Assembly: GCA_029256485.1 (NCBI GenBank)
Contig: JAQSXU010000067.1
Span: 1 to 17,932 of the forward strand
Origin: Clostridiaceae bacterium
GTDB taxonomy: Bacteria > Bacillota_A > Clostridia > Clostridiales > Clostridiaceae
DNA: 17,932 nucleotides
Direction of reading: 5' to 3'
In this document: piece after piece, positions 9,571 through 16,917 of the stretch
How the letters are laid out: each line of letters begins with the position of its first letter
Position numbering within the stretch: the stretch's first letter is position 1
Program-made: the position numbers and the translations under genes
Notes under the pieces: generated by a model
What the model was told of the DNA's origin: nothing
Database searches by the model: none
The model's input: the letters and a program-made list of their open reading frames with translations, nothing else

Positions 9571-10191
9571 ATGTATAACTATATAATATTTGATATTGAC
9601 GGCACACTTTTAGATACAGAAACTGCAGTTCTTTCATCACTTCAAAAATTAATATCAGAGGAGCTTAATAAAGAAATGAACTTCGATGATCTAAAATTTG
9701 CTTTAGGTATTCCTGGAGAGATAACTCTTAATAAACTAGGAATAGCCAATATTTTAGATTGCAATATAAAATGGAATAGATATTTAAAAGAATATTTTCA
9801 TCATGTGAAGGTTTTTGATAATATTCAGGAGACTTTAGACAGACTAAAGGAAATGGGAATTATAATGGGTATAGTTACTTCAAAAACAAAAGAAGAGTTT
9901 AAAAATGATTTTTTACCCTTTGGCCTAAACTATTACTTTAATATAGTAGTATGTGCAGATGACACAGAAAAACATAAGCCTGATGCTGAACCAATTTTAA
10001 GATTTATTGAATTGGCCTGCGCAGATAAATCAAAGACCATATATATTGGGGATACTAAATATGACATGGAGTGTGCATTTAATGCCGGTATAGATTTTGC
10101 ACTGGCCTTGTGGGGGGCTAAATCATCCTCTGGAATTTATGCAGATTATATACTTGAAACACCTGAACAAATATTAAAGCTTGCGAAATAA
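9571..10191 (+). CDS. HAD-superfamily phosphatase, phosphoglycolate phosphatase-like
   Basis: 206 residues with the four HAD motifs: FDIDGTLLDT (nucleophile Asp8, acid Asp10), VTSKT (Ser104), Lys136 in KHKPDAEP, and YIGDTKYDM (Asp161, Asp165). The helical cap between motifs I and II places it in subfamily IA (Gph/PgmB-like), cytoplasmic enzymes acting on small phosphate esters. The substrate is unknown. The frame opens at 9538, but GGAGGG at 9561-9566 sits 4 bases before ATG 9571, which also starts right at the conserved motif, so 9571 is used. It is the last gene before the 350-base leader of the ABC-F gene. Confidence 0.85.
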   Translation: MYNYIIFDIDGTLLDTETAVLSSLQKLISEELNKEMNFDDLKFALGIPGEITLNKLGIANILDCNIKWNRYLKEYFHHVKVFDNIQETLDRLKEMGIIMGIVTSKTKEEFKNDFLPFGLNYYFNIVVCADDTEKHKPDAEPILRFIELACADKSKTIYIGDTKYDMECAFNAGIDFALALWGAKSSSGIYADYILETPEQILKLAK

Positions 10192-10226
10192 TAATTTGAG
10201 ACTTTTATTTAATGCTTATAAATAAG

Positions 10227-10255
10227 TTGCAAATATTGTAATTATAAGTTAAAAT
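10227..10255 (+). promoter_or_regulatory. sigma-A promoter for the ABC-F gene
   Basis: TTGCAA (10227-10232), a 17-base spacer and TAAAAT (10250-10255) form a near-consensus housekeeping promoter. Transcription would start near 10262, leaving about 280 bases of leader before the ABC-F start codon. Confidence 0.6.
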
Positions 10256-10286
10256 TATCATGTAAAATATACAGTAGGAAAGCTTA

Positions 10287-10310
10287 ATGCTTTCTATAAA
10301 GAAAGGGTAA
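10287..10310 (+). CDS. candidate leader peptide MLSIKKG of the ABC-F gene
   Basis: ATG 10287 has AGGAAAG (10276-10282) just ahead and ends at TAA 10308-10310 after seven residues. It overlaps two mutually exclusive hairpins: GAAAGC/GCTTTC (10278-10283 with 10289-10294) and CTTTC/GAAAG (10290-10294 with 10301-10305). A ribosome stalled on this ORF would change which forms. Such leaders are known for inducible ABC-F and methylase resistance genes. That this one works is inference. Confidence 0.5.
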   Translation: MLSIKKG

Positions 10311-10369
10311 GGTATTTAAACGTGAAGATGTAATCTGCTTTTAAATGGTTTGTAAAATGTAATAAACTT

Positions 10370-10413
10370 ATGCAAAATCTTCTCAATGAAGGTTTGTTGT
10401 TTATGCATTTTTT
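10370..10413 (+). terminator. candidate transcription attenuator in the ABC-F leader
   Basis: ATGCA (10370-10374) and AATCTTC (10376-10382) pair with GAAGGTT (10388-10394) and TGCAT (10404-10408). The loop is TCAAT, there is a bulge on the 3' side, and a T run follows (10408-10413). It lies inside the leader, after the promoter and leader peptide and 130 bases before the coding start, so it would act as an attenuator rather than a gene-end terminator. Confidence 0.5.
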
Positions 10414-10510
10414 AAAAACTTGTGAGTGGATGGTATCTTAGGTTTAAACTGAAGTCTTATTTTGTTTTAAACGCTATATTTATATAAATTTTTATATAAA
10501 AAACTACTAT

Positions 10511-10541
10511 CCTCTCCGGGCTAATAAGGAGGGGTATTTTT
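10511..10541 (+). promoter_or_regulatory. hairpin that sequesters the ABC-F ribosome binding site
   Basis: CCTCTCC (10511-10517) pairs with GGAGGGG (10528-10534) across a ten-base loop, with one T-G wobble. The 3' arm is the ribosome binding site, 7-9 bases before ATG 10542, and TATTTTT follows the stem. It could block translation, end transcription, or both. Confidence 0.6.
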
Positions 10542-12182
10542 ATGCTATTAATTGAAGGTGCAAATATTAAAAAATATTATGGTGACAGATTAATATTAAA
10601 TATTGAAAATATAAAAATTTATTCTGAGGATCGTATAGGAGTAGTAGGACTTAATGGAATGGGTAAGACCACTTTAATGAATATACTGTACGGGAAACTT
10701 CAGCCTGAGGAAGGTTTTGTTAAAAGCTATGGATCAATCAGCTTTATATCTCAGTTAGAGCCTTCAGAGCAGGAAGAAATTAATAAGGAGATTGCCAGTA
10801 AATTTGGTGTTGGACACAGTTGGAAGGATCATATGAGCGGAGGAGAAAAAACCAAATTTAAACTGGCTCAAAGCCTGTATGAAAACAGCGAAATTATATT
10901 TGCTGATGAGCCCACTTCAAATCTTGATATGGAAGCTGTTAAGCTTCTTGAAGAAAAGTTTAAAGCATATAATGGTGCCTTGGTCATAGTATCTCATGAC
11001 AGAGAATTTCTTGATGAGTTATGTAATAAAATTGTGGACATTGACAGAGGTGAAATTAAGTTTTATACAGGTAATTATACTTCATATAAGCAGCAAAAGG
11101 AAAAAGAACGTGAAAGAGCTGAATTTGAATACGATGAGTACGAAAAGGAAAAGAGAAAACTGGAAGCTGACATGTTGGAAACAAAGGAAAAGACAAGGAA
11201 TATAAAAAATGCACCATCTAGGATGGGAAATTCCGAAGCCAGACTTCATAAGATGGGAAACCAGAAGGCTAAAGCAAACCTAGACAGAGCTGTAAAGAAT
11301 ATGGAGGCAAGACTGGTGCATCTGGAGGCTAAGGAAAGGCCAAAGCACATTGATAAAATAAAACTGGATGCTCTGAGTACAGATAAGCTTCACAGTAAAA
11401 TTCTCATTAGCGGAAGAAATATAAATAAATCCTTTGACGGTAAAATTATTTTTCAAGGCGCAGAGTTTGATATATATAATGGATCAAAGACAGCATTGAT
11501 GGGACCTAATGGCAGCGGAAAAAGCACACTTATAAATATGATAATGAATGGTGACAGTTCTATTAAAACATCACAGGGAGCCAGAATAGGATATTTCAGC
11601 CAGGCTCTTGATATATTGGATGATAAGCAAAGCATAATTGAAAATGTCATGGAAGAATCCATTTATGACGAAACCTTTGCCAGAACACTGTTAGCAAGAC
11701 TTTTATTTAAAAGGGAGGATATTTATAAAAAGGTGCAGGTGCTTAGCGGAGGAGAGAGGGTAAAAGCCTCCTTTGCAAAAATATTTTTAAAGGATATAAA
11801 TCTTCTTATTTTAGATGAGCCTACAAACTATTTGGATATCAACTCCATGGAAGCCTTAGAAGAGGCTTTGAAGGAATATTCCAGAACTATATTGTTCGTT
11901 TCTCATGACAGAAGATTTGTTAGCACCATAGCAGACAATATAATATCTATAGAGAATAAGAGCCTTGTTTCCTTTCATGGAAACTATGAGGAATTTATTG
12001 AAAGAAAAAGCATTAAGGCTGATGTTTATAAACAGGAAAAGAAAAAGAGGATTTTTGTACTTGAAAATAGAATTTCTGAGCTTATTGGAAGGTTATCTAT
12101 GCCAGGCAAAAAGGATGATTTAGAGAAACTGGATATAGAGTATACGGAGACACTTTCTGAATTGAGAGAATTAAGAAAATAG
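10542..12182 (+). CDS. ABC-F ATPase, ribosome-protection (antibiotic resistance) type
   Basis: 546 residues with two ATP-binding domains and no membrane segments, as in ABC-F proteins. Domain 1 has Walker A GLNGMGKTT (36-44), signature MSGGEK (98-103) and Walker B IIFADEPTSNLD (118-129). A charged linker spans about 185-285 and includes SRMGNSEARLHKMGNQK. Domain 2 has GPNGSGKST (321-329), LSGGER (401-406) and LLILDEPTNYLD (421-432). A basic coiled-coil tail follows. The first domain is short between Walker A and signature, as in Vga, VmlR and the clostridial CplR proteins, which bind the ribosomal E site and dislodge lincosamides, streptogramin A and pleuromutilins. The leader also fits an inducible resistance gene. 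Resistance is inferred from family only; a translation-factor role is the alternative. The radical SAM gene follows 46 bases later. Confidence 0.85.
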   Translation: MLLIEGANIKKYYGDRLILNIENIKIYSEDRIGVVGLNGMGKTTLMNILYGKLQPEEGFVKSYGSISFISQLEPSEQEEINKEIASKFGVGHSWKDHMSGGEKTKFKLAQSLYENSEIIFADEPTSNLDMEAVKLLEEKFKAYNGALVIVSHDREFLDELCNKIVDIDRGEIKFYTGNYTSYKQQKEKERERAEFEYDEYEKEKRKLEADMLETKEKTRNIKNAPSRMGNSEARLHKMGNQKAKANLDRAVKNMEARLVHLEAKERPKHIDKIKLDALSTDKLHSKILISGRNINKSFDGKIIFQGAEFDIYNGSKTALMGPNGSGKSTLINMIMNGDSSIKTSQGARIGYFSQALDILDDKQSIIENVMEESIYDETFARTLLARLLFKREDIYKKVQVLSGGERVKASFAKIFLKDINLLILDEPTNYLDINSMEALEEALKEYSRTILFVSHDRRFVSTIADNIISIENKSLVSFHGNYEEFIERKSIKADVYKQEKKKRIFVLENRISELIGRLSMPGKKDDLEKLDIEYTETLSELRELRK

Positions 12183-12228
12183 TTTAAAATTATTTTGTAA
12201 ATAGTATTTTAGCAAAGAGGGAAATATT

Positions 12229-13107
12229 ATGCATGAAACTCAGGTAAAGGGTATATTATCTGCTCAAAATGGAATGAATATTTATCGCGGCTGTACTCAC
12301 GGGTGCATTTACTGTGATTCAAGAAGCACATGCTATCAGATGCATCATGATTTTGAAGATATAGAGGTAAAATCCAATGCACCAAGTGTTTTAGAGGGTG
12401 CATTGCGCAGGAAAAGAAAGAAATGCATCATAGGAACCGGGGCTATGTGTGATCCATATATTCCTCTAGAAGAGAAACTTATGAACACTCGTAGGTGCAT
12501 AGAGCTTATTTATTCCTATGGCTTTGGATTAGCCATACTGACCAAGTCTGCAAGAATTTTAAGGGATTTGGATCTGCTTAAGAAAATTAATGAAAACACA
12601 AAATGTGTAGTACAGATGACTCTAACCACTTATGATGAAGCCTTGTGTAAAATTATAGAACCTAATGTGAGTACTACAAAACAGCGGCTTGAAGTGCTGA
12701 AGGTAATGCGTGATAACGGAATCCCCACTGTAGTCTGGCTGAGTCCTATTCTGCCTTTTATTAATGATACAGAAGAAAATATCCGTGGAATCCTTGATTA
12801 TTGTATAGAGGCGAAAGTGAAGGGCATAATTTGCTTCGGCATGGGACTGACCTTAAGAGAAGGGAACAGGGAGTATTTCTATAAAAAGCTGGATGAACAT
12901 TTTCCTGGAATGAAGGCTCGATATATGGATAGATATAAGTATGCTTATGAGATAATAAGTCCTAATAATCAAAAGCTCATGAGTATATTCAAAAGCACCT
13001 GCAAAACTCACGGTATAATGTGTGACATTGGAGAATGCTTCAATTATCTCCATAAATTCGAGGAAAAAAATCATCATGAGCAGTTAAAGCTTCCCTTACT
13101 TGATTAG
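12229..13107 (+). CDS. radical SAM protein, spore-photolyase-like (COG1533-type)
   Basis: 292 residues. The iron-sulphur cluster motif CxxxCxxC is at Cys22, Cys26 and Cys29 in YRGCTHGCIYCDSR, which is characteristic of the SplB-related family. A GTGAMCDPYIPLE segment (about 74-86) and LAILTKSARILRDLDLL are also family-like. Further Cys residues near the C-terminus (MCDIGECFNYL, CKTHG) might hold a second cluster or bind substrate. The enzyme would cleave SAM to a radical in the cytoplasm. True spore photolyase has a longer, different N-terminus, so DNA repair is not assumed. AGAGGG precedes the ATG. It may share the ABC-F message. No terminator is visible before the riboflavin promoter. Confidence 0.8.
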   Translation: MHETQVKGILSAQNGMNIYRGCTHGCIYCDSRSTCYQMHHDFEDIEVKSNAPSVLEGALRRKRKKCIIGTGAMCDPYIPLEEKLMNTRRCIELIYSYGFGLAILTKSARILRDLDLLKKINENTKCVVQMTLTTYDEALCKIIEPNVSTTKQRLEVLKVMRDNGIPTVVWLSPILPFINDTEENIRGILDYCIEAKVKGIICFGMGLTLREGNREYFYKKLDEHFPGMKARYMDRYKYAYEIISPNNQKLMSIFKSTCKTHGIMCDIGECFNYLHKFEEKNHHEQLKLPLLD

Positions 13108-13146: not shown

Positions 13147-13186
13147 GTCAATGTGAAATAGTTATCATGAATTGAAAATTAAATAG

Positions 13187-13292
13187 TTCTTCAGGGCAGG
13201 GTGAAATTCCCTACCGGCGGTATAGCCCGCGAGCCGTAAGGTTGATTCGGTGAAACTCCGAGGCCGACAGTAAAGTCTGGATGGAAGAAGAA
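13187..13292 (+). promoter_or_regulatory. FMN riboswitch (RFN element)
   Basis: The conserved RFN segments occur in order: TTCAGGGCAGGGTGAAATTC, then CCTACCGGCGGT, GCCCGCGAGCC, GATTCGGTGAAACTCCGAGG, CCGACAGTAAAGTCTGGATG and a closing GAAGAAGAA that pairs with the opening TTCTTC. The element binds flavin mononucleotide and turns off riboflavin genes when FMN is plentiful. A strong terminator lies downstream, so control is probably by early termination. All core elements appear intact. Confidence 0.97.
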
Positions 13293-13309
13293 TGTGTGGA
13301 TAATATTAG

Positions 13310-13406: not shown

Positions 13407-13430
13407 ATTAATGAAACTGGAGTGATTGTG

Positions 13431-14543
13431 TTGGATGTGAGATATATGAAAAGAGCACTAGAACTGGCTGAAAAAGGGGCAGGTTATACTAATCCAAACC
13501 CACTGGTAGGCGCGGTTATAGTAAAAAATGAGAAAATTATCGGAGAAGGATATCATCAGGTGTTTGGCAGCAGTCATGCTGAAGTAAATGCATTTAAAAA
13601 TGCAACCGAGGATGTTAAGGGAGCAACTATGTATGTTACTCTGGAGCCCTGTTCTCATTATGGAAAAACACCTCCATGCGCAAATGCCATAGTAGAAAAA
13701 GGGATAAAGAAGGTAATAATAGGTTTGGTAGACCCTAACCCCCAGGTATCCGGCAGGGGAATAAAAATTCTTCAGGATAATGGTATTGAGGTGATTACAG
13801 GTGTTCTTGAAGAGAAGGGACGAAAGCTTAATGAAATATTTCTTAAATACATAACCACAAAACTTCCCTTCTGCACAATGAAAACCGCCATGACCCTGGA
13901 TGGAAAAATTGCTGCTTACACAGGAGACTCAAGGTGGGTTACAGGAGAACTTTCAAGAAAATACGTTCATCAATTAAGGCATAGAATGTCTGGTATTATG
14001 GTGGGAATAGGCACAGTACTTGCAGATGATCCTATGCTGACAACAAGGTTTGACAATGGAGAAGGAAGGGATCCTGTGAGAATAATTGTGGATACCAGAG
14101 CAAGAATACCACTTGAAGCTAAAGTTTTAAATGTTACATCAAAAGCAAGGACAATTATAGCTGCTTCTGAAAAAGCACATAGTGAAAAGTTAAAGGCTCT
14201 GGAAGAAAAGGGTGCTGAAGTTATCATTGCGCCATTAAAAAGTGGCAAAGTGGATTTGAGCTTTCTTATGAAAGCTCTGGGAGAGAGAAACATAGACAGT
14301 GTACTTTTAGAGGGTGGAAGTGAATTAAACTATGCTGCTCTTCAGGAAGATATCGTTGACAAGGTAAATGCCTTTATAGCTCCTAAAATTGTGGGAGGAA
14401 GCTCATCAAAAACTCCCGTTGGCGGTGAAGGAAAGGCTTACATGAAAGATGCATTTTTGCTTAATGAAATAGACATTCATCGTTTTGGTGAAGACATAAT
14501 GATAGAAGGATATATAGATAAACAACTTGTTTATCAATATTAA
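13431..14543 (+). CDS. ribD: bifunctional riboflavin deaminase/reductase RibD
   Basis: 370 residues. The N-terminal deaminase domain removes the amino group from the pyrimidine product of GTP cyclohydrolase II. Its zinc site is His49 and Glu51 in HAEVNA with Cys74 and Cys83 in the PCSHYGKTPPC segment. The C-terminal domain (about 145-370) is the NADPH-dependent reductase, with TMKTAMTLDGKIA, SRWVTG, GIGTVLADDPMLTTR and LLEGGSELN visible. The frame opens at GTG 13422. CTGGAG (13417-13422) is best placed for TTG 13431 (8 bases), which gives the typical RibD start MDxxYMKRALELA, so TTG is preferred; GTG 13428 is the alternative. It is the first gene of the FMN-controlled operon. Confidence 0.96.
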   Translation: MDVRYMKRALELAEKGAGYTNPNPLVGAVIVKNEKIIGEGYHQVFGSSHAEVNAFKNATEDVKGATMYVTLEPCSHYGKTPPCANAIVEKGIKKVIIGLVDPNPQVSGRGIKILQDNGIEVITGVLEEKGRKLNEIFLKYITTKLPFCTMKTAMTLDGKIAAYTGDSRWVTGELSRKYVHQLRHRMSGIMVGIGTVLADDPMLTTRFDNGEGRDPVRIIVDTRARIPLEAKVLNVTSKARTIIAASEKAHSEKLKALEEKGAEVIIAPLKSGKVDLSFLMKALGERNIDSVLLEGGSELNYAALQEDIVDKVNAFIAPKIVGGSSSKTPVGGEGKAYMKDAFLLNEIDIHRFGEDIMIEGYIDKQLVYQY

Positions 14544-14560
14544 AAAGGAGGACTAGATCA

Positions 14561-15211
14561 ATGTTCACTGGACTCATTGAGGAAATAGGGATTGTTGAAG
14601 CTGTCATTAAGTCCGCAAAGTCAGCAAGGATATCAGTTAAAGCCCATGAGGTTTTAGAAGGGGTAAAAATTGGAGACAGCATATGTACTAATGGGGTATG
14701 TTTAACAGTGACATCATATGACAGAGGCAGGTTTACTGTGGATGTAATGGCAGAAACTATGAGGAGAAGTAATTTAAAAAGTCTTTCACCAGGTGATGAA
14801 GTGAATCTTGAAAGAGCTATGCTTGTAGGTGATAGATTAGGAGGCCATATTGTAGGCGGCCACATTGATGGTACTGGAATTATTGAAAAGTATGAGCAGG
14901 AGGATAATGCAGTATGGATTACCATTGCAGCTTCATCTGAAATTTTAAAATATATAGTTCAAAAGGGTTCCATTGCAATAGATGGAGTAAGTCTTACAGT
15001 AGCTAATGTAGATGAAAGTGTATTTAAAGTTTCAATTATTCCGCATACTAAAGATATGACCACACTTCTTAAAAAGAAAATGGGTAATGAAGTAAACCTT
15101 GAATGCGATATCATAGGAAAATATGTTGAAAAGTTCCTAGGAGCCAAGGAGCAGACCCCGGTTAACAAAGGAATAGACTTTAATTTTCTTAGTGAAAATG
15201 GTTTTGCATAA
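14561..15211 (+). CDS. ribE: riboflavin synthase (alpha chain)
   Basis: 216 residues, the normal length. It dismutates two molecules of 6,7-dimethyl-8-ribityllumazine into riboflavin and the ribityl-pyrimidine. The protein has two tandem similar barrels, each with the lumazine-binding pattern: MFTGLIEEIG at the N-terminus, CTNGVCLTV (42-50) and AETMRRSNL (64-72) in the first, GGHIVGGHIDGTG (94-106) and IAIDGVSLTV (138-147) in the second. AAAGGAGG ahead of ATG 14561 supports the start. It lies 17 bases after ribD and 19 before ribBA. Some nomenclatures call it ribC or ribB; ribE follows Bacillus usage. Confidence 0.96.
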   Translation: MFTGLIEEIGIVEAVIKSAKSARISVKAHEVLEGVKIGDSICTNGVCLTVTSYDRGRFTVDVMAETMRRSNLKSLSPGDEVNLERAMLVGDRLGGHIVGGHIDGTGIIEKYEQEDNAVWITIAASSEILKYIVQKGSIAIDGVSLTVANVDESVFKVSIIPHTKDMTTLLKKKMGNEVNLECDIIGKYVEKFLGAKEQTPVNKGIDFNFLSENGFA

Positions 15212-15230
15212 ATTAATAGGAGGATGAAAA

Positions 15231-16454
15231 ATGTATAAGTTTAATACAATTGAAGAGGCAATTGAGGATATCAAAGAAGGTAAAATGATAGTGGTAATAG
15301 ACGATGAGGACAGGGAAAATGAAGGAGATTTGTTAATGGCTGCAGAGAAGGTTACTCCGGATGCTATTAACTTTATGGCTAAGTATGCCAGAGGGCTTAT
15401 CTGCATGCCTATTATGGGCGAAAGGTTAAGACAGTTAGACATCAATCCTATGGTAGAGGAGAATACAGATGCCCATTGTACTGCCTTTACAGTGTCTATA
15501 GACGCAGCAGATGCAAAAACAGGAATTTCTGCATATGAAAGAGCTGCTACAATACAAAAGGTTTTAGATTTAAACTCAACAGCAGAAGATTTTAGCAGAC
15601 CTGGTCATGTATTTCCCTTGGAAGCAAAGGAAGGCGGAGTTCTCAAGAGAACAGGTCACACAGAAGCATCAGTGGACTTAGCTAAACTGGCAGGTTTTTA
15701 TCCTGCAGGAGTAATATGCGAAATAATGAATGACGATGGAACAATGGCCAGAACTCCGCAGCTTATGGAATATGTAAAGGAACATGGACTTAAAATAATA
15801 ACTATTGCAGATTTAATTACCTATCGCAGGAAAAATGAAGCTTATGTAAAAAGAGCCGCAGAAGCAAAATTGCCTACGAAATATGGTGAATTTAGGATGA
15901 TTGGTTATGAAAACACTTTAAATGGGGAACATCATGTTGCCTTAGTAAAAGGGGATGTTTCAAATGGAGAACCTGTACTTGTAAGAGTTCACTCTGAATG
16001 CCTTACAGGGGATGCCTTTGGCTCCATGAGATGCGACTGCGGGGAACAGCTTGCTGCGGCCATGAAACTCATAGAGAAAGAAGGAAGAGGAATACTACTT
16101 TATATGAGACAAGAGGGAAGAGGCATAGGACTTATAAATAAAATAAAGGCTTATGACCTTCAGGATAAAGGCATGGATACAGTGGAGGCTAATCTGGCTT
16201 TGGGCTTTCCTGCAGATATGAGAGATTACGGAATTGGTGCTCAAATTCTAGCTGATCTGGGAGCAAAAAAGCTGAGACTTATGACAAACAACCCTAAAAA
16301 AATGTCAGGTCTTTCTGGATATGGCATAGAGATTGTTGAGAGAGTGCCAATTCAAATGAACCATAATGAAAGAAATGAATTTTATTTAAGAACCAAGAAG
16401 CAAAAGCTTGGACATATACTAAATTTTAATGATAAAAATGGAGGAGAAAAGTAA
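15231..16454 (+). CDS. ribBA: DHBP synthase / GTP cyclohydrolase II fusion RibBA
   Basis: 407 residues, a two-domain enzyme making both precursors of the pathway. The N-terminal domain (about 1-200) turns ribulose 5-phosphate into 3,4-dihydroxy-2-butanone 4-phosphate; its acidic active-site loop [11 protein letters not shown] (24-34) and [12 protein letters not shown] (140-151) are intact. The C-terminal domain (about 215-400) opens GTP; its zinc ligands Cys257, Cys268 and Cys270 lie in [18 protein letters not shown], followed by RQEGRGIGL and [15 protein letters not shown]. No key residue is missing. AGGAGG precedes the start. The stop is one base before the ribH start codon, so translation is probably coupled. 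Confidence 0.97.
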
Positions 16455-16455
16455 G

Positions 16456-16917
16456 ATGAAAATGTATGAAGGAAAATTAGTTGCTGAAGGATTAAAATTT
16501 GGAATTATTGTAGGAAGATTTAATGAGTTCATTGGAGGTAAGCTTCTCACAGGAGCATTAGATGGATTAAAGCGCCATGGGGTAGAGGAAAATGATATTG
16601 AAATAGCCTGGGTTCCTGGAGCTTTTGAAATCCCTCTTACTGCGAAGAAAATGGCTAAATCCCAAAAATATGATGCGGTTATCTGTCTTGGTGCTGTAAT
16701 AAGAGGAGCTACACCTCACTTTGATTATGTTTCAAATGAGGTTTCCAAGGGTATTGCAAGTGTGTCCTTAGAAACAGAAATTCCAGTAATATTTGGAGTA
16801 TTAACTACTGACACAATAGAACAGGCTATTGAAAGAGCCGGAACAAAGGCTGGAAATAAAGGGTATGATGCAGCAGTTACTGCAATTGAGATGGCAAATC
16901 TGCTTAGGCAGCTTTAA
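16456..16917 (+). CDS. ribH: 6,7-dimethyl-8-ribityllumazine synthase
   Basis: 153 residues. It joins the ribityl-pyrimidine and dihydroxybutanone phosphate to make lumazine, usually as a 60-subunit shell. Family motifs are GRFNEFI (20-26, with the stacking Phe22), WVPGAFEIP (52-60), [14 protein letters not shown] (79-92, catalytic His88) and [19 protein letters not shown] (113-131). The frame opens at 16429 inside ribBA, but GGAGGAG lies about 9 bases before ATG 16456, and [16 protein letters not shown] is the usual family start. It is the fourth operon gene. Confidence 0.97.

Follow-up and report, generated by a model that had tools for sequence, protein, structure and literature searches.

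The leader of the C. difficile cplR gene, as set out in the text compared here (PMC10201436, Obana et al. 2023), contains an upstream open reading frame (uORF) encoding MRI in a 5′ hairpin, a terminator with a polyU tract that sequesters the Shine-Dalgarno (SD) sequence, and an antiterminator that belongs to the induced state. According to the reporter mutants in that text, the uORF is required, and transcriptional and translational attenuation are additive (PMC10201436); the published consensus of the cplR uORF is MR[I/M] (PMC10201436). Figure 3B of the same paper places the Lmo0919/VgaL leader in an alignment with CplR leaders. The B. subtilis vmlR leader, in the compared text of a second report (PMC9226507, Takada et al. 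2022), carries a uORF (MIN) in the anti-antiterminator SL-1, a pause hairpin (SL-2) with a NusG TTNTTT motif, a terminator, and an SD-sequestering hairpin.

Here, the leader of an ABC-F gene is described in a 17,932-nucleotide stretch of DNA from a Clostridiaceae bacterium (the window). We consider it very probable that this leader is a CplR-type attenuator, in which an antibiotic stall on an ORF encoding MKM would free a switch arm and break the hairpin that carries the SD sequence and the terminator. A first-pass annotation of the same DNA had proposed an ABC-F leader laid out as for ribosome-mediated attenuation, its last hairpin uniting a transcriptional with a translational gate, and in this it was right. 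Its promoter site, ORFs, and mid-leader and last hairpins are indeed present, and the leader folds beyond shuffled sequences; its choice of sensor ORF and its controlled mid-leader terminator are probably wrong.

Organization of the Locus

The features of the locus and the basis of each assignment are as follows.

10227..10255, + strand: probable promoter TTGCAA-17-TAAAAT; consensus scan, position conserved in relatives
10277..10295, + strand: 5′ hairpin GGAAAGC/GCUUUCU; folding, with similar sequences seen by eye in relatives L012 and L106
10287..10310, + strand: MLSIKKG ORF; no counterpart in the nearest relatives, uncoupled from the switch in folds
10302..10314, + strand: conserved block AAAGGG-T-AAGGTA, probable SD region of the sensor ORF; alignment A1
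10322..10333, + strand: sensor ORF GTG-AAG-ATG-TAA (MKM), counterpart of the relatives' MRM/MRI uORFs; alignment with relatives, stall model
10333..10340, + strand: 5′ arm of SL1 (anti-antiterminator), pairing with 10424-10431; pairing frequency, compensatory changes
10345..10362, + strand: MVCKM ORF; without a counterpart among the closest relatives; blocking its start would also open SL1
10372..10402, + strand: mid-leader apical hairpin and T-rich stretch TTTGTTGTTT (10393-10402), probable polymerase pause hairpin at the SL1 tip; folding, likeness to vmlR SL-2
10424..10434, + strand: switch arm; 10424-10431 with 10333-10340 (repressed), 10424-10434 with 10506-10516 (induced)
10506..10516, + strand: 3′ side of the antiterminator, overlapping the 5′ arm of the SD-terminator hairpin; pairing, swap test, compensatory changes
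10510..10541, + strand: terminator-like hairpin whose 3′ arm is the ABC-F SD sequence (GGAGGGG, 10528-10534), then TATTTTT; sequence, alignment A2, folding
10542..12182, + strand: CplR-like ABC-F ribosomal protection protein, 546 amino acids; NCBIfam scores

The best NCBIfam score of the ABC-F protein, among the 187 families listed, was obtained with ABCF_CplR (NF043038). This score of 616 bits is below the curated CplR cut-off of 780 bits, and the protein was therefore called CplR-like rather than CplR. The model for ribosomal protection-like ABC-F proteins (NCBIfam NF000355) was passed with 499 bits against a cut-off of 380, and the solved structures closest by sequence are 7nhl, a lincosamide-streptogramin A resistance protein, and 7nhn, Lmo0919.

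With a transcription start inferred near 10262, the leader between the likely promoter and the ABC-F gene comprises approximately 280 bases. Its whole fold reaches −69.9 kcal/mol, compared with −52.0 kcal/mol for dinucleotide shuffles (z −4.4; 0/200 as good). At the Rfam gathering score, the sole match in the whole window is an FMN riboswitch at 13183-13296, the leader falling in no family, and the loci of five relatives gave no match; a permissive threshold yielded two matches within 10200-10600, both far under gathering. The FMN riboswitch (120.5 bits) is located upstream of apparent riboflavin synthesis genes at 13422-16917, as judged by eye from the ORF list.

The promoter had been described as near-consensus. 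It agrees with only 9 of the 12 consensus positions, a score reached by 45% of shuffled upstream regions, and in a consensus scan of 9900-12400 promoter-like sites were not in excess (9 vs 11.6 in shuffles). Support for the promoter comes from its position rather than from this score, because a match of at least 10 of 12 positions is found upstream of the sensor ORF in 29 of 39 relatives' leaders, compared with 9% of shuffles (one short upstream region being left out), and because both hexamers of the nearest relative, L012, are identical to those of the window. The two mutually exclusive 5′ hairpins that had been proposed can likewise be drawn, at 10277-10295 and 10290-10305, and both appear in folds, with the qualification that the second would cover the SD sequence of the MKM ORF. 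By eye, both hairpins (10277-10305) are common to L012, and L106 has a similar arrangement with a changed sequence.

A Conserved Three-Codon ORF as the Putative Sensor

A family-wide search found an ABC-F match at E 1e-150 or better in 40 of 206 genomes; one of them (G115), whose match starts at residue 128, was dropped, and the leaders of the remaining 39 relatives were compared. The nearest relatives by protein identity are L012 (79%), L013 (72%), and, from a later search, L106 (73%). In all 39 family-level relatives and in the window, an AAAGG-type SD block precedes an ORF of three or four codons; in most of the 40 leaders, the block reads AAAGG(G)-N-AAGGTA. The ORF was located by a pattern scan in 34 of the 40 and positioned by hand in the other six. 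Tripeptides are encoded in 38 leaders and tetrapeptides in two, and the start codon is ATG in 35, GTG in four, and TTG in one. ATG-AGA-ATG-TAA and ATG-AGA-ATA-TAA are common forms, and the nearest relatives have TTG-AGA-ATG (L012), GTG-AAT-ATT (L013), and ATG-AAG-ATG (L106). Thus, as in CplR-type leaders, a very short uORF with an SD sequence is found ahead of an ARE-type ABC-F gene. The window's MKM departs from the published consensus MR[I/M]; since the relatives also vary (MKM, MRK, MKK, and others), this consensus was not treated as defining for a CplR-type leader.

The conserved ORF at 10322-10333 was overlooked in the first-pass annotation, whose choice of sensor ORF was probably wrong. 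Comparison of relatives makes such an ORF findable even with a GTG or TTG start, and ATG-only searches would miss it. In the literature searched, mostly titles and without supplements, no title on a GTG- or TTG-started sensor in leaders of this kind was found, and the variant may already be in print. In four leaders (L014, L015, L016, and L021), the SD block contains an upstream ATG in the reading frame of the tripeptide, and the sensor could equally be an 11-residue peptide, for example MKGKVFGDMRI.

Two Alternative Helices Sharing a Switch Arm

The first-pass annotation had suggested aligning the relatives' leaders for covariation, and both predicted alternative helices show compensatory changes. 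RNAalifold run on alignment A1 returned no consensus structure and no pairs, and was replaced by column counts for the helices named from the window. One leader (L026) was left out of A1 and A2, and seven (L026 and six divergent leaders) were left out of A3, a selected set of 33 leaders, and of the covariance model R1 described below. The shuffle tests of the helices ignore kinship, and the register of SL1 was picked with prior sight of the alignment columns.

The 5′ arm of SL1 starts with the final base of the sensor ORF and continues into its flank, and the pairing of 10333-10340 with 10424-10431 corresponds to the 5′ hairpin by which CplR-type leaders keep the uORF region paired when repressed. 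In the 39 leaders, 94% of SL1 cells can pair, compared with 33-59% when the register is slid and 86% in shuffles (0/2000), and the value is 97.3% in A3. Double-changed cells number 18, compared with 5.0 in shuffles (0/2000). By the number of pairs that show a double change and by the number of pair types, SL1 was matched by 73 and 9 of 2000 shuffles, and in A3 by 45 and 121 of 500, respectively. The pair 10337-10427 illustrates this variation, being A-U in 22 of the 39 leaders, U-A in nine, G-U in two, G-C in two, U-G in one, and unpaired in three, with at least five changes among the paired rows on the protein tree.

For the antiterminator, 83% of cells can pair in the 39 leaders, compared with 44-59% in slid registers and 79% in shuffles (0/2000), and 18 cells are double-changed, compared with 8.0 in shuffles (1/2000). 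Its counts of doubly changed pairs and of pair types do not exceed those of shuffles (1228 and 1127 of 2000), and its pair 10427-10513 is a mismatch in most rows. In a swap test of 37 leaders (three near-duplicates dropped), duplexes with the own partner (−15.9 kcal/mol) were stronger than those with swapped partners (−11.9 kcal/mol; 0/10000 permutations), a result favoured by the selection of the arms for fit to their own target. The window's own target ranks 14th of 37, and 13 of the 36 other targets bind its arm better.

Folding with a Modelled Stalled Ribosome

A stalled ribosome was modelled by blocking 29 bases around the MKM start. In the transcript to 10541, this block decreased the probability of SL1 from 0.99 to 0.00 and that of the SD hairpin from 0.94 to 0.41, and increased that of the antiterminator from 0.00 to 0.75. 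Across the 40 leaders, blocking the sensor ORF reduced the probability of the terminator hairpin by over 0.1 in 28 and raised it by that much in none; the exclusion of the terminator hairpin by an antiterminator upon a uORF stall, which characterizes CplR-type leaders, was thus seen in silico for the window and for these 28 leaders. The modelled stall caused no switching in the other 12, including the second-nearest relative L013 (1.00 to 0.92) and L044, which has no SD hairpin where the script looked. When the block was moved by −30, −15, 0, +15, +30, +45, and +60 bases from the ORF, a drop was found in 2, 4, 21, 16, 7, 4, and 1 of 29 leaders, respectively, L044 and leaders with a folded stretch above 420 bases being left out. 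The effect is therefore commonest at the ORF and weaker to either side. With the stall on MKM, the terminator-hairpin probability of the window fell from 1.00 to 0.44.

The first-pass annotation had instead taken the seven-residue MLSIKKG peptide as the antibiotic sensor, whose stall would switch the two 5′ hairpins and so decide termination in the middle of the leader. This ORF does exist at 10287-10310, with a suitably spaced SD-like AGGAAAG and a start within a hairpin. The peptide is absent from L012, L013, and L106, and although 19 of the 40 leaders contain some ATG ORF of at least five codons starting in the same region, their sequences are varied. A block on MLSIKKG left the terminator-hairpin probability at 0.99-1.00, and in the transcript to 10541 the mid-leader hairpin stayed at 1.00, SL1 at 0.99, and the antiterminator at 0.00, with the SD hairpin about unchanged (0.94 to 0.89). 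A sensor role for MLSIKKG is hardly credible in view of this lack of conservation and of the unmoved switch, and the candidate was rejected.

A second mini-ORF, MVCKM, is also present at 10345-10362 and likewise has no counterpart in the three nearest relatives. Upstream, an unrelated 17-residue ORF is found in L012 and MEN in L013; downstream, L012 carries MLILKSS. L106 has neither. A block at the MVCKM start decreased the terminator-hairpin probability to 0.17 and opened the switch, because the same stem is covered. MVCKM was therefore rejected as the sensor on conservation only.

The Mid-Leader Hairpin

The mid-leader hairpin is formed by pairs between 10378-10382 and 10388-10392, with a weaker extension between 10372-10376 and 10393-10397, and the fold of 10355-10420 has an energy of −13.5 kcal/mol (z −3.2; 1/200 shuffles as good). 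In the 40 leaders, a hairpin of −4 kcal/mol or lower is located directly 5′ of a T-rich stretch, 45-72 bases past the ORF, in 22, compared with 5% of shuffles; the same count at −3 kcal/mol gave 27 (shuffles 9%), and a wider count, anywhere in 100 bases at −4 kcal/mol or lower, gave 25 (shuffles 14%). TTNTTT, the motif of vmlR, was found in 30 of the 40 leaders, compared with 17 expected from mononucleotide shuffles, and in the window the hairpin is followed by TTTGTTGTTT. A longer motif, TTTNTT[GT]T, picked after the alignment was seen, occurs in 29 of the 40 leaders, compared with 4.7 expected, and is absent from L012 and L013.

The first-pass annotation had named an intrinsic terminator here, and the position of this hairpin before a T-rich stretch would suit a true intrinsic terminator (10355-10410) acting as the main gate. 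The hairpin itself is real and conserved in many relatives. Its five apical pairs, however, have a probability of 1.00 with a ribosome on MKM, on MLSIKKG, or on neither, and since it forms in every tested state, neither stall could relieve a strong terminator at this place. In addition, the T-rich stretch of the window is interrupted, a consensus terminator scan of the + strand at 9900-12400 reported no terminator-like site, either here or at the last hairpin, and the text compared reports the cplR start codon as the point where C. difficile transcripts end (PMC10201436). A main gate at this position is thus improbable, and the controlled mid-leader terminator was downgraded. The element is probably a polymerase pause hairpin, a reading that draws on its independence of the stall and on the vmlR pause hairpin, which has TTNTTT between the uORF and the terminator. 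If it is a pause signal, it would add a timing step to these leaders, as in vmlR.

A broader proposal can be made tentatively, namely that clostridial CplR-type leaders possess a third device, a drug-independent RNA polymerase pause hairpin (hairpin and T-rich stretch) that would sit at the anti-antiterminator tip and hold the polymerase until a ribosome loads on the three-codon sensor, and that the GUG or UUG start in the branch of the window sets a lower basal loading. Our confidence in it was slightly lowered because the tightened count gave 22 of 40 leaders and because the longer motif is absent from L012 and L013.

The Last Hairpin

The stem of the last hairpin pairs 10510-10517 with 10528-10535. 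As had been noticed, its 3′ arm is the ABC-F SD sequence and a T run follows, and by anatomy it corresponds to the SD-sequestering terminator hairpin with a U tract of CplR-type leaders; its role as a terminator is predicted, and the consensus scan did not report it. Folded alone, it has a z of −1.6 (12/200 shuffles as good), and it shows no covariation beyond shuffles.

A purely translational switch, in which this hairpin hides the SD sequence without terminating transcription to a useful degree, would be consistent with the interrupted U tract of the window (TATTTTT) and with the C. difficile polyU mutant, which is still tightly regulated according to the text compared (PMC10201436). Such a gate would not need a T tract after the SD sequence, and the tract is kept in relatives, with four invariant T columns in alignment A2. 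This alternative is accordingly judged unlikely, and a hairpin serving both gates is preferred.

Distribution of the Leader

The covariance model R1, covering the leader from the sensor to the arm, gave a single match per genome in 66 of the 225 genomes searched in the order. Of these 66 genomes, 33 are among the 39 already compared (most of them trained the model) and 33 are new. Thirty of the 33 new places precede a tblastn match to the ABC-F query, some of these matches being fragments or running off a contig end; of the other three, L122 is followed by a truncated ABC-F gene, L134 stops at the edge of its contig, and L132 precedes an MFS efflux gene. The three- or four-codon ORF was found by the strict pattern in 26 of these 33 matches, by the loose pattern in one, and not in six. 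At the class level, R1 matched 17 of 391 genomes, some of them the same as in the order set, and one match (L147) is inside a coding sequence. In 23 class-level leaders, the ORF was found by the strict pattern in 15 (two of them odd), by the loose pattern in four, and not in four.

Several single loci may be mentioned. At 100-240 of L132, a weak R1 match (38.9 bits) directly precedes the MFS efflux-like gene; the locus shares the small hairpin and TTTTTTGTTATGC, with a different mini-ORF. A second regulon for this type of leader was considered on this basis and set aside, one weak match being insufficient. Leaders also remain before a truncated (L122, 301-510) or degraded (L145, 1500-1860) ABC-F gene, and the ORF lists of L102, L103, L104, and L107 suggest interrupted ABC-F frames. 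In L118 (G153), a leader of the same kind with an MNN mini-ORF precedes an ATP-binding cassette protein that matches the ABC-F protein of the window weakly (33% over 227 residues).

Proposed Mechanism and Comparison with Known Systems

In the proposed mechanism, SL1 (10333-10340 with 10424-10431) and the SD hairpin would both form without a stalled ribosome, as folding predicts. An antibiotic would stall the ribosome translating the three-codon ORF (10322-10333), which would free 10424-10434 to pair with 10506-10516, and the resulting antiterminator would break the hairpin that ends transcription and hides the ABC-F ribosome binding site. By analogy with the experiments on C. difficile cplR and B. 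subtilis vmlR, induction would be expected from drugs such as pleuromutilins and lincosamides, and the two gates, on transcription and on translation, would act additively. The mid-leader hairpin and its T-rich stretch may pause RNA polymerase, letting the ribosome load on the short ORF.

The combination of gates, which had been thought possibly new in detail, is already demonstrated in the compared text on C. difficile cplR (PMC10201436) and resembles that of vmlR (PMC9226507). The leader of the window has the same parts in the same order as the cplR leader, the C. difficile sequence being compared by description. Unlike the latter, as far as the text compared goes, it has a sensor with a GTG start that encodes MKM rather than MR[I/M], a length of approximately 280 bases (from the inferred start) instead of 212, and a mid-leader hairpin with a T-rich stretch, which is absent from the cplR text compared; the word NusG has no occurrence in the main text of PMC10201436. 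Its protein also differs in scoring under the CplR cut-off. The likeness to vmlR, again by description from the text compared, lies in a uORF at the anti-antiterminator, a pause-like hairpin, a terminator, and SD sequestration, whereas the SL-3 terminator and the SL-4 SD hairpin are separate in vmlR and one hairpin seems to do both in the window. The vga(A) leader, judged by the title of the paper on it, is a further case of ribosome-mediated attenuation of a related ABC-F gene. Collectively, the leader of the window looks like another example of the known clostridial switch. The GTG- or TTG-started sensor and the pause-like element are details absent from the cplR and vmlR text compared, and the compensatory changes in both helices support the C. 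difficile cplR switch as a leader found in many clostridial genomes.
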